Assembly: GCA_030428565.1 (NCBI GenBank)
Contig: JAUIDR010000034.1
Coordinates: 1 to 36,697 of the forward strand
Length of the DNA: 36,697 bases
Direction: 5' to 3'
Origin: Alphaproteobacteria bacterium
GTDB taxonomy: Bacteria; Pseudomonadota; Alphaproteobacteria; UBA7985; JAUIBT01
The notes under the pieces are model-generated. The model was not told where the DNA came from and ran no database searches. It worked only from the letters and a program-made list of their open reading frames with translations. Positions 4,667 through 36,697 of the stretch are shown here, piece after piece; the first letter of the stretch is position 1, and every line of letters begins with the position of its first letter. The translations under genes were made by a program, and so were the position numbers.

Positions 4667-5797
4667 TTGAACGCGCTGTATGACATTTGTCGCTGTTGGC
4701 GGTCTATTTTAGCTCGCTTGGAACCACGCCGGATACTTGCGAAGCCCGGCCTGCGGGCAGCCGCCTTGGTCTTTATACTCGGACCCAGTTTGAGCGGTTG
4801 CTTTGGTTTTTACGGCCAGGCGGCGCGTGGGCAGAGCGAGATTCTGCTCAAGCAGCGCTCGCTGGTCGCGGCGGCCAATGATCCATCCACCAGTGCCAAG
4901 ACCCGCGAAAAACTGCGGCAAGTACAGCGCATTCGCATTTTCGCCGACCGCCGCTTAGCCCTGGAAGTTGGCGATAATTATGGCTCCTATGCCGATTTAG
5001 AACGCGAATCGGTAGTCTGGAATGTCATGGCCGCGCCCGAGTTCTCCCTCAAGCCCAAGACCTGGTGCTACCCGATTGCGGGCTGCGTCGGTTATCGCGG
5101 TTTCTTCAGCGAGGGCGATGCGGATCGCTTGGTCGCCCAGCTGCAAGCCCAGGGCTACGACGTCTATTCGGGCGGTGTCGATGCCTATTCAACGCTGGGC
5201 TTCCTCAAAGACCCGGTGCTCAACACCTTCTTGGATAAGAGCGATGTCGAGTTGGCCAGTCTGCTGTTCCATGAACTGGCCCATGCGCGCTTCTACCTGA
5301 AGGGTGACACCGCGTTTAATGAGAGCTATGCCACCGCCGTTGAATACGCGGGCCTCAAACTTTGGTTGCAAGAGCGCGGTGACGGCACGACTTTCGCGCG
5401 CTATCAACAGTACGAGGAAGCCATAGCGCAATTTCGCGCGCTGGTGCGCCAGACCCGGGCCGAGCTTGCCCAACTCTATCGCCAGCCGCTACCAACCCAG
5501 GATATGCGCGCGCGCAAGCAGGCCATCATTTCATCCCTGCGGGACCGCTATCAACGGGCCAAACCGGGCCTGCATGGGGTCTCGTTCGATAAGTGGTTCT
5601 TTTCGGACATCAACAATGCCAAGCTGAATTCAGTCGCCACCTATGAGGACCTGGTGCCGGGCTTTACGACAATGCTGGCGCGCTGCAACCAGGACTTCCC
5701 CTGCTTCTATGCAGCGGTCGAGCGCCTATCCAGGCGCCCCAAATCAGAACGCGACGCCTTGCTGCGCAACTTGGGTCAGGCCGTGACCCGCGACTAG
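4667..5797 (+). CDS. Lipoprotein zinc aminopeptidase (PF10023 / COG4324 family)
   Basis: This 376-residue protein is a predicted envelope aminopeptidase. A hydrophobic segment (29-44) ends in the lipobox LSGC (Cys45). The metal site is HELAH (202-206) with the downstream NESYATAVE (218-226), whose Glu is the likely third zinc ligand. The surrounding KTWCYPIAGCVGYRGFF block (131-147) is typical of the family. Translation most likely starts at TTG 4667, six bases after AAGGA. The nearer ATG at 4662 reads only two codons before TGA and overlaps the TTG. The frame has no other good start before the signal segment. Substrates are unknown; peptide turnover in the envelope is an inference from the fold and location. 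Confidence 0.85.
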   Translation: MNALYDICRCWRSILARLEPRRILAKPGLRAAALVFILGPSLSGCFGFYGQAARGQSEILLKQRSLVAAANDPSTSAKTREKLRQVQRIRIFADRRLALEVGDNYGSYADLERESVVWNVMAAPEFSLKPKTWCYPIAGCVGYRGFFSEGDADRLVAQLQAQGYDVYSGGVDAYSTLGFLKDPVLNTFLDKSDVELASLLFHELAHARFYLKGDTAFNESYATAVEYAGLKLWLQERGDGTTFARYQQYEEAIAQFRALVRQTRAELAQLYRQPLPTQDMRARKQAIISSLRDRYQRAKPGLHGVSFDKWFFSDINNAKLNSVATYEDLVPGFTTMLARCNQDFPCFYAAVERLSRRPKSERDALLRNLGQAVTRD

Positions 5798-35199: not shown

Positions 35200-35373
35200 C
35201 GCGCCACCGCCTCTGTGATCGCTCGCCAGGCCAAAATCAGGGGTGGGTGCCAGGAACAATACATAAACAATTAACAAGTGATAAAAGCAATTGCCATCAT
35301 ATTGCGCATACCATAGAACTAATCACGAACAAACAGCTTGGCAATCGCCTAGCTTCCTGATAGGAGTAACTCT
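35200..35373. other. Junction between conserved core and accessory patch
   Basis: Base composition drops from GC-rich to AT-rich across this 174-bp gap, around 35250. It should carry the promoter for the glycine-zipper gene, but I could not assign confident -35 and -10 boxes. No direct repeats marking an insertion site are seen. Confidence 0.4.
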
Positions 35374-35907
35374 ATGGCAAACACCTTTTACCCTAATCCG
35401 CTTTTGGCGCGCGCCTCGGTCACGCCCTATGGTGCGAAGCCCTCGTTGCGCCCGCAACCTTTCAACCCAGCCTTGCGCGGCGAAGCCCTGAAACGGTTCT
35501 TGTATCCACCTGTCAAAGTGCGGTCACGCACCTGGCGTTCAAAACACTTTGAGCAGCCCATCGCACCGCCTGTAAAGCCGGGCAAGATCACCTACGTGGA
35601 CCGCAGGGATGACGGCATCAGGCCGCTACCTGGATACTTGGTTCGCCGAAAACGTGGTGAACCTAGAGCTCTTGAGGGCAGAATAGCCAAGCAAGTATGC
35701 GCTCTTACAATTGGAGGTTTGGGCGCGATGCATGGATCAAAAGCTGGCCCATGGGGCACCCTTGCAGGCGGCGTCCTTGGCGGCGTCTTGGGTGAGATCG
35801 GCTGTGATCAGGCGGGCGAATTCAGTCTCCCCAGTATTCAGCCAGGCATTCCAAGTCCAAATGGCAGGATAGACCACAACGGCAATACGATTAACCCTCA
35901 CCTCTAA
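35374..35907 (+). CDS. Basic glycine-zipper protein, bacteriocin-like, family unknown
   Basis: A 177-residue protein starts at ATG 35374, seven bases after AGGAG. Residues 1-105 are rich in Pro, Arg and Lys and probably unfolded; RRKRGEPR (91-98) is strongly basic. Residues 112-144 form one glycine-zipper membrane segment with glycines at 117, 121, 125 and at 128, 132, 136, 140, that is, GxxxG repeated without a break. Cys109 and Cys144 bracket it and could form a disulfide. The tail (145-177) is polar with Asn and Gly. There is no signal peptide and no GG leader. Glycine zippers occur in pore-forming bacteriocins and in 17-kDa-antigen-like envelope proteins; I cannot choose. A small membrane protein follows. 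Confidence 0.7.
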   Translation: MANTFYPNPLLARASVTPYGAKPSLRPQPFNPALRGEALKRFLYPPVKVRSRTWRSKHFEQPIAPPVKPGKITYVDRRDDGIRPLPGYLVRRKRGEPRALEGRIAKQVCALTIGGLGAMHGSKAGPWGTLAGGVLGGVLGEIGCDQAGEFSLPSIQPGIPSPNGRIDHNGNTINPHL

Positions 35908-35917
35908 ATAAGGCTTA

Positions 35918-35955
35918 CGCAATGGGAGTGACTTAGCAATCACTCCCTTATTGCG
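35918..35955. terminator. Long inverted repeat after the glycine-zipper gene, probable terminator
   Basis: CGCAAT-GGGAGTGA (35918-35931) pairs with TCACTCCC (35940-35947) and ATTGCG (35950-35955), a 14-bp stem with a two-base bulge and an 8-base loop. Only a short T-run (TTATT) follows the inner stem, so it may be a weak terminator. It could also be a bidirectional structure or protein site between the two accessory genes. Confidence 0.6.
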
Positions 35956-35974
35956 ATATGCGGATAGAATCCAT

Positions 35975-36133
35975 ATGTCAAAAACCACTCATTTTACTAT
36001 TATATTTATTATAATGCTTTTAGCAAATATAATAAGAGAAGTTTATGACATTAGCTTTTCTTTATATCTTGTTGCAATTGGAGCTTCTGCCTTTATGATA
36101 GGAGAGATATATAAACAAACAAATGAAAAATAA
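35975..36133 (+). CDS. Small two-helix membrane protein, immunity-like
   Basis: A 52-residue protein from ATG 35975 (an in-frame TTG at 35951 would add eight residues). Two hydrophobic helices (about 6-20 and 27-44) flank a short charged hinge REVYD (21-25). The tail is charged (GEIYKQTNEK). Codons are strongly A/T-ending, unlike the GC-rich core, which suggests acquisition by transfer. It lies 67 bp downstream of the glycine-zipper gene in the same direction, the position and build typical of bacteriocin immunity proteins, but no homology is known to me. The ribosome site is weak, which lowers confidence. Confidence 0.5.
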   Translation: MSKTTHFTIIFIIMLLANIIREVYDISFSLYLVAIGASAFMIGEIYKQTNEK

Positions 36134-36535
36134 ATCAAGTAAATTATACAAATAATTATCATGTAATATGAACGATTAAACTATCACACACTTGTAAATA
36201 TAAAAACAATTTTGTTATGTATTACACTCGAATGTACATAGCAATTACAGCCGTTGTTATATCTATTTTTCGCGAATATATGCTTACCGTTGCATGCATC
36301 TAATATAATTGTTTGTAAAAACATTTAATGAATGCGTCTGTCAATTTCTTGAGTTAATTACAAATATGACGTTGTTAGTTACTATAAACTAATTTCATCA
36401 AATCTGATATGTTGATATCATTTAAATTACATCTAGTTAGCAATATATATTATGAATAAAAAAAATCTAAAAATAAGCCTAAGATATGCAATTTTGACGA
36501 CTGTAATGTGGGAAATTGTTATGTCTATTATAGCT
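36134..36535. other. Very AT-rich accessory stretch
   Basis: About 400 bp of very AT-rich sequence with two hydrophobic micro-ORFs (36217-36303 and 36452-36550), an inverted repeat TTAGTT-N6-AACTAA (36375-36392) and a TGATATCA palindrome near 36414-36421. No strong ribosome sites are visible. Composition differs sharply from flanks on both sides. Confidence 0.5.
36217..36303 (+). CDS. Hydrophobic 28-residue micro-ORF
   Basis: ATG 36217 to TAA 36303 encodes a 28-residue peptide with one hydrophobic helix (MYIAITAVVISIF) followed by Arg-Glu. This helix-then-RE layout resembles the 52-residue membrane protein upstream (LLANIIREV). No ribosome site is visible, so it may be a decayed remnant of a related gene rather than an expressed one. 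Confidence 0.2.
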   Translation: MYYTRMYIAITAVVISIFREYMLTVACI

Positions 36536-36550
36536 GGACACCCGCATTAA
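36452..36550 (+). CDS. Hydrophobic 32-residue micro-ORF at the edge of the IS region
   Basis: ATG 36452 to TAA 36550 encodes 32 residues: a Lys/Asn-rich start, then a hydrophobic helix (AILTTVMWEIVMSIIAG). TVMWEIV sits where NIIREVY and SIFREYM sit in the two upstream peptides. Its last codons run into the IS-proximal GC-rich sequence, so the original C-terminus may have been cut by the insertion. No ribosome site is visible. Confidence 0.2.
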   Translation: MNKKNLKISLRYAILTTVMWEIVMSIIAGHPH

Positions 36551-36697
36551 CCTTGCGGGATTGAGGTCGTCGTGATTCACTTGGGTGAAGGAGAAGCCTA
36601 TGCCCGTGATCAAGCAAGAGCCGTCGCTGTTCGGTATGTCGGACCATCTGAGGAGTCTAAGCGAAAGCGGCGATCCCCTGGCCGTGCTGGAGCGGAC
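36541..36697 (+). mobile_element. Left part of an IS5-like insertion sequence, cut by window edge
   Basis: Composition jumps from AT-rich to GC-rich at about 36535-36541. A hairpin CCCGCA-TTAACCT-TGCGGG (36541-36559) precedes the transposase start, as often seen near IS ends where it blocks read-through. The exact end cannot be fixed because the right terminal repeat and the target duplication lie outside the window. Confidence 0.6.
36600..36697 (+). CDS. IS5-family transposase, N-terminal fragment
   Basis: From ATG 36600, seven bases after GGAG, the first 32 residues are visible. They include SLFGMSDHLRSLSESGDPLAVL, split here as SLFGMSDHL and LSESGDPLAVL, which matches the common N-terminus of IS5-family DDE transposases (SLF..hLs.LS..GDPL..L). 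The catalytic DDE domain lies beyond the window. Whether the gene is intact cannot be judged. Confidence 0.7.
   Translation, partial: MPVIKQEPSLFGMSDHLRSLSESGDPLAVLER

Follow-up and report, generated by a model that had tools for sequence, protein, structure and literature searches.

A gene pair near the end of the window (the whole stretch of 36,697 nucleotides analysed here, contig C19 of genome G000) is quite probably a chromosomal, SOS-induced, polymorphic bacteriocin-immunity pair, since its larger protein belongs to a family with exchangeable arms and heads, an SOS box precedes the gene, and spare two-TM genes and decayed (pseudogene) toxin copies are present in the family loci. The SOS-boxed pair seems to belong to a bacterial weapon family that was previously unnamed; the kind that it resembles, polymorphic bacteriocin-immunity systems, is known, and no paper describing the putative toxin family was found in the open-access literature. 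What the sequences show directly is the family itself, its modularity, the pairing of genes, the SOS boxes, the recombination and the decay. The variable head is probably membrane-damaging, and the small membrane ORF probably protects the producer. Both ORFs that the original prediction had described, encoding proteins of 177 and 52 aa, lie on the forward strand where it had placed them (Table 1).

Table 1. Features of the window, members of the family and SOS-boxed endolysin-like genes.
Feature	Location	Strand	Remarks
LexA/SOS operator	35316..35330	+	GAACtaatcacGAAC; ~43 bp 5' of the putative toxin start
Putative toxin ORF	35374-35907	+	encodes 177 aa
N-terminal arm module, codons 1-66	35374..35571	+	basic, Pro/Arg-rich; motif TWRSKHFEQPIAPP
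C-terminal head module	35572..35907	+	linker, helical Gly-rich segment between Cys109 and Cys144, then conserved tail ..DHNGNTINPHL
Cys-bracketed glycine-rich segment, residues 109-144	35698..35805	+	
Stem-loop	35918..35955	+	GGGAGTGA-N8-TCACTCCC with lower stem; lies between the 177-aa and 52-aa genes
52-aa membrane ORF	35975..36133	+	predicted cognate immunity protein; two hydrophobic segments
5' part of second small two-TM gene	36452..36535	+	spare immunity candidate; IS-interrupted
Insertion sequence end	36536..36697	+	terminal repeat GGACACCCGCATTAA and target duplication AGCT, both read from the letters
Relatives in G000	C15 (Z2), C10 (Z3), C21, C82		Z2, reading frame broken; Z3, frameshifted; C21, stop-containing; C82, intact
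Relatives in G001	C142 twice (Z1, Z2), C71 (Z3)		
Relatives in G002	C33 twice (D1, D2), C33 mutY locus (Z3), C13 (D3)		D1 and D2 beside dnaQ; also remnants
Endolysin-like gene, G000 (L120)	C88 1050-1481	-	
Endolysin-like gene, G001 (L065)	C4 341-772	+	
Endolysin-like gene, G002 (L098)	C28 1447-1878	+	

The surroundings of the pair agreed with the earlier description of an AT-rich patch between dnaQ and an IS: dnaQ is located upstream of the 177-aa gene, the GC content of the patch holding the 52-aa gene is ~28-38% versus ~52-66% in the remaining window, and an IS end runs from 36536. What that description overlooked was the SOS box, the intergenic stem-loop and a third membrane ORF, in which the IS begins and which it breaks. 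The stem-loop (MFE -25.3 kcal/mol, z -5.3) is a candidate terminator or attenuator. An intact two-TM ORF in G001 is the counterpart of the broken one, as both pieces match it separately, and the other half opens contig C15 of G000 (matching from position 124). Since the ORF broken at 36535/36536 continues at the start of C15, the two contigs are probably neighbours in the genome. A related IS end adjoins toxin D3 in G002. IS ends akin to that of the window (L062 8-127; L004 1-127) were also seen beside toxin/immunity genes in G000 and G002, and several family-bearing contigs terminate near such genes. No phage genes were recognised among the ORFs neighbouring the putative toxin gene.

The 177-aa protein was originally singled out for seven glycines in unbroken GxxxG register. 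The positions were correct but the register is not unbroken, as the glycines form one run of three (117, 121 and 125) and one of four (128, 132, 136 and 140). Two other features held as described: Cys109 and Cys144, which bracket the glycines, are the only cysteines of the protein, and the long Pro/Arg-rich arm is basic (21 K+R versus 6 D+E among residues 1-100). When the sequence was shuffled at its own composition, the count of six GxxxG pairs over the full length gave p ~0.04, and the register within residues 101-150 gave p ~0.07-0.13. Since the register is only marginal against composition, the glycine zipper by itself is weak evidence; what appears to count is the conservation across the family of a Cys-bracketed, usually Gly/Ala-rich segment. 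AlphaFold, at low confidence (mean pLDDT 49), placed head helices at residues 97-124 and 126-147 (pLDDT ~58-65 there). Searches of Pfam, NCBIfam, PHROGs, PADLOC and PDB sequences returned nothing above threshold for either the toxin or the small protein. No structural or envelope family claimed the 177-aa protein: its only Pfam match, to Rick_17kDa_Anti (E 0.28), scored 11.6 bits against a cut-off of 24.2, related Gly-zipper models likewise fell under their cut-offs, an internal-virion-protein profile matched weakly (E 0.08), and NCBIfam and PADLOC gave no match. Colicin killing and translocation domains had no Pfam or NCBIfam match over cut-off and nothing convincing among PDB sequences, and profile support for a pore-forming head was nil (Pfam, NCBIfam, PHROGs). 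As predicted, no known leader or signal was seen, i.e., neither lipobox nor signal peptide in the 177-aa sequence and no double-glycine leader in the family sequences.

About ten related genes or remnants, encoding proteins of 154-205 aa, were found across three genomes of one alphaproteobacterial genus, namely that of the window and the congeneric G001 and G002. Outside the genus, no convincing relative was found in 385 genomes of the class, 398 genomes of the phylum or the rest of the order, and none in plasmids, phages or viral contigs. Weak matches in ten genomes (G052, G080, G136, G163, G208, G312, G693, G745, G003 and G007) were judged to be chance because of marginal E-values; mostly they covered part of the profile, and some were inspected individually. 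The two-cysteine bracket was present in eight of the nine members listed, and the ninth, Z2 of G001, ends at a stop codon in the position of the second cysteine of the G000 copy. Heads are usually Gly/Ala-rich, with an extended GxxxG run in the hydrophobic region in most members. Since the head of C82 is Ala-rich and almost without glycine, the glycine zipper appears to be usual but neither universal nor family-defining. Some of the frameshifts may be artefacts of MAG-quality assemblies. Downstream of D2 on contig C33 of G002 (L061, 13000-20000; ~4774-4990) there is also an armless toxin-head remnant with one internal stop (match C33:17773-17985), and after it a small membrane ORF that is broken (~5100-5370); together they look like a displaced head/immunity module. 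On contig C7 of G002 (L072 1840-2466, + strand), an ORF with a Pro-rich start and an Ala-rich helical end lies a few hundred bp 3' of a GAAC-N7-GAAC site and is possibly another toxin-like gene.

Members of the family share a disordered, basic, Pro-rich arm (codons 1 to ~65), in which alignments show a recurring PHSWRS-type motif, fused to a variable, usually Cys-bracketed head; in several members a second motif, RRGPGYPExGPTPATAY, follows the arm. D1 and D2, which are adjacent to each other after dnaQ in G002, have 406 identical nucleotides that comprise the upstream DNA and the first 195 coding nucleotides, with no detectable similarity beyond, while D3, which lies on a different contig, matches at 97-99% identity along the corresponding stretch and then differs. 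In the window gene, codons 1-66 were 92% identical at the nucleotide level to the arm of the G001 paralogue Z2 versus 75% to the gene's own orthologue, Z1, and codons 67-178 were ~97% identical to Z1 versus 51-58% to Z2. Since the arm is closest to Z2 and the head closest to Z1, the window gene appears to be a chimera with its junction at codon 65-66, the same place as the break between D1 and D2. The hallmarks of a polymorphic system, i.e., a conserved N-terminal part, a swapped C-terminal head and a changing partner, were thereby found in D1/D2/D3 and in the window gene.

The cassette is less diverged than genes upstream of it. Comparison of G000 with G001 gave dS values of 1.42 for aroE and 1.00 for coaE; within the cassette, dS was 0.28 for Z1, 0.07 for the 52-aa gene, and 0.07 and 0 for two further small genes, the small-gene values being rough since they rest on few sites. 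The partner of Z3 gave 0.28. Identity between the two genomes rose gradually along dnaQ and reached 96-98% in the Z1 head. These patterns fit recombination of the cassette between species, as is usual for bacteriocins, and because identity rises without a sharp edge, the limits of the transfer do not appear cleanly delimited.

A small membrane ORF followed on the same strand at 11 of 11 loci checked, compared to ~1 of 130 genes in a control set from which one family member had been removed, and no homologue without a partner was found. Together with the modularity, the SOS box and the spare genes, this co-occurrence favours the pairing of effector and protector proposed originally. Partner ORFs encode ~52-78 aa, begin at most about 160 bp past the toxin stop and have two hydrophobic segments; C82 is instead followed by ORFs with three. 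The 52-aa protein, 88% identical in G001 at the amino acid level, was originally called a two-helix protein, and its two hydrophobic stretches (residues 7-23 and 26-42) were borne out, but AlphaFold, given a single sequence, drew one continuous helix. The predicted hairpin is based on hydropathy and a central charged stretch, IREVYDIS. The partners of D1, D2 and D3 are mutually 17-28% identical, compared to shuffle maxima of 26-29%, and since they are about as unlike as shuffled sequences, the partner appears to change along with the head. Homology among the small membrane proteins, which was considered, was dropped, as mean column identity was 21% and pairwise values were within or barely above those of shuffles. 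Stem-loops with unrelated stem sequences lie between the genes at loci of the Z1 and Z3 types (z -5.3 to -2.5; Z3-locus stems, z -4.8 and -2.7), while that at D1 was not significant (z -1.1); such a structure would permit separate expression of the small gene. G001 has two extra two-TM ORFs with no toxin of their own between Z1 and Z2, and the first of these ORFs is the one broken by the IS in the window.

The only exact GAAC-N7-GAAC in the window is the operator upstream of the 177-aa gene. The same element occurs 42-48 bp before the start of Z1, Z2, Z3 and C82 across genomes and is the best-conserved element in the aligned upstream regions; the D1-D3 promoters of G002 carry AAAC-N7-GAAC, i.e., one mismatch. 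G000 has 73 exact sites in 3.5 Mb, and its own lexA (box 89 bp upstream) and ssb bear the element; the exact lexA-box sequence was found again in both sister genomes. The LexA motif of alphaproteobacteria is GTTC-N7-GTTC (PMC3323433; PMC9578287), and it is from the motif that LexA control is assigned to the family.

An exact SOS box also lies 20-21 bp before a TIGR02594/CHAP endolysin-like gene in all three genomes (Table 1; the family was assigned on the G001 copy). Behind this gene lies an SNase-like ORF, joined in G000 and G001 by a hydrophobic ORF of 114-115 aa, and the group is a candidate conserved SOS lysis cassette. Searches for the T6SS sheath VipB (PF05943) and the C39 peptidase (PF03412) gave matches in control genomes (for C39, including Caulobacter) but none in the three genomes, and no type I exporter genes were recognised among the neighbouring ORFs. 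Delivery by a T6SS was rejected, as no VipB was found in these three genomes. Since SOS-boxed endolysin genes are present and neither VipB nor C39 peptidase was found, release by lysis, as for colicins, is suggested as the preferred route; a non-C39 type I exporter may conceivably provide another.

The weak Rick_17kDa_Anti and internal-virion-protein matches might point to a glycine-zipper protein of the envelope, or one derived from phage, that is unrelated to conflict and has an incidental small ORF beside it. However, these matches lie below cut-off, there is no lipobox or signal peptide, and polymorphic heads, a consistent partner ORF, an SOS box and the lack of recognised phage genes nearby all oppose this very improbable reading, which the pattern of pairing and swapping appears largely to refute. 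It is also quite unlikely that the pair serves a self-directed SOS programme, in which a holin- or TisB-like toxin would act on the cell's own membrane (lysis or dormancy) with the small protein as antiholin or antitoxin. Such a programme would suit the SOS box upstream of the 177-aa gene, the membrane-type segments of both proteins and the lack of an exporter of the tested types (T6SS sheath, C39), but it does not readily account for head swapping on a conserved 65-aa arm, for the dissimilar partners beside identical arms or for the spare protectors. To our knowledge, holins and TisB-type peptides have no long basic arm, which also counts against it.

The bacteriocin-immunity reading invites comparison with several known systems. 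Pore-forming colicins and S-type bacteriocins are under LexA control, combine an N-terminal reception/translocation part with a C-terminal killing module, have cognate membrane immunity proteins and swap modules. The family described here resembles them in LexA control by motif and, by analogy only, in module roles, cognate immunity and swapping; it differs in being far smaller (154-205 aa), with no sequence match to colicin domains, in carrying its small ORF on the toxin's strand, with a stem-loop in between at several loci, and in forming chromosomal arrays. Class II microcins (e.g., microcin V) are small membrane-active peptides rich in glycine, each with a small TM immunity protein, and the family differs from these in having no double-glycine leader or C39 exporter, about twice the length and an SOS box. 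A further alternative, which we consider unlikely, is a Cdz-like glycine-zipper bacteriocin, dependent on contact or secreted by a type I system, that is displayed on living cells and not released by lysis; in its favour, a glycine zipper and a small membrane immunity protein occur together in an alphaproteobacterium, as in Cdz (PMC5380434). However, CdzC and CdzD of Caulobacter crescentus form a two-protein toxin of 84-86 aa with a leader, exported through a type I system by the adjacent cdzAB and induced in stationary phase, and CdzI has three TM segments (PMC5380434). The present family, in contrast, consists of single proteins of 154-205 aa with a long, conserved 65-aa arm and no T1SS leader, has no exporter alongside and no C39 domain in three genomes, carries an SOS box, and has mostly 52-69-aa two-TM partners and many polymorphic copies; the extended GxxxG run of Cdz is shared by most members, though not by C82, and in the window protein it only marginally exceeds what shuffles give. 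CDI ionophores (CdiA-CT/CdiI) have Gly-zipper heads and very hydrophobic, two-helix immunity proteins of 72-100 aa with extreme sequence variation (PMC11630599), and are the closest precedent for the head/immunity design, as Cdz is for an alphaproteobacterial glycine-zipper toxin. The genes of the present family, unlike these, are separate, stand-alone and SOS-boxed, with no CdiA filament and no profile match. Since the defining features of both systems were tested and not found, the family appears to belong to neither.

For the bacteriocin-immunity pair, we infer killing, membrane depolarisation, immunity, the release route and the role of the arm along the following lines. DNA damage would lead to cleavage of LexA and synthesis of the 177-aa protein, which, since it has no recognisable export signal, would most likely exit by lysis of a fraction of the cells, perhaps aided by the SOS-boxed CHAP/TIGR02594 cassette. 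The disordered basic arm would act as the reception and translocation part for entry into related cells, and the Cys-stapled, Gly-rich head would insert into the target inner membrane and depolarise it. In the producer, the 52-aa two-TM protein would reside in the inner membrane and neutralise only the cognate head, and spare two-TM genes would give cross-protection. Recombination at codon 65-66 would place new head and immunity modules behind the resident promoter and arm. The chances are about even that the family constitutes a new class of bacteriocins that follow a delivery logic of their own (a short, disordered 65-aa arm with a PHSWRS-type motif, small disulfide-stapled membrane heads, lysis, spare two-TM arrays and LexA), in which the arm takes any of many heads out of lysed cells and through the outer membrane of relatives, and arms and heads are shuffled at one fixed junction.

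Few protein bacteriocins have been described from Alphaproteobacteria; Cdz and a tailocin were those met in the literature searched. If the present reading is true, the family would represent a compact, chromosomal system of colicin logic, 154-205 aa in size, offering a ready-made set of different heads on the same arm. Two questions would thereby open to direct experiment: the shortest sequence that suffices to bring a toxin through the outer membrane of a Gram-negative cell, and the way in which glycine-rich membrane toxins are recognised by two-helix immunity proteins.

The SOS box is also a handle for finding further members of the family. Indeed, C82 was found via sites with AT-rich cores, in a survey of site contexts at individually retrieved loci, and later matched the A2 profile (E 7e-5). 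A family of 321-324 aa (start MFG.K...) is likewise preceded by an SOS box (L141, G000:C49 128-1090, - strand; L099, G002:C54 1209-2180, - strand); it had no Pfam family over cut-off, is followed by membrane ORFs in G002, and is possibly another SOS-controlled effector family. A TIGR00282 metallophosphoesterase gene, assigned on the G000 copy, has an AT-rich GAAC-N7-GAAC upstream in all three genomes (L103 in G000, L094 in G001 and L097 in G002).
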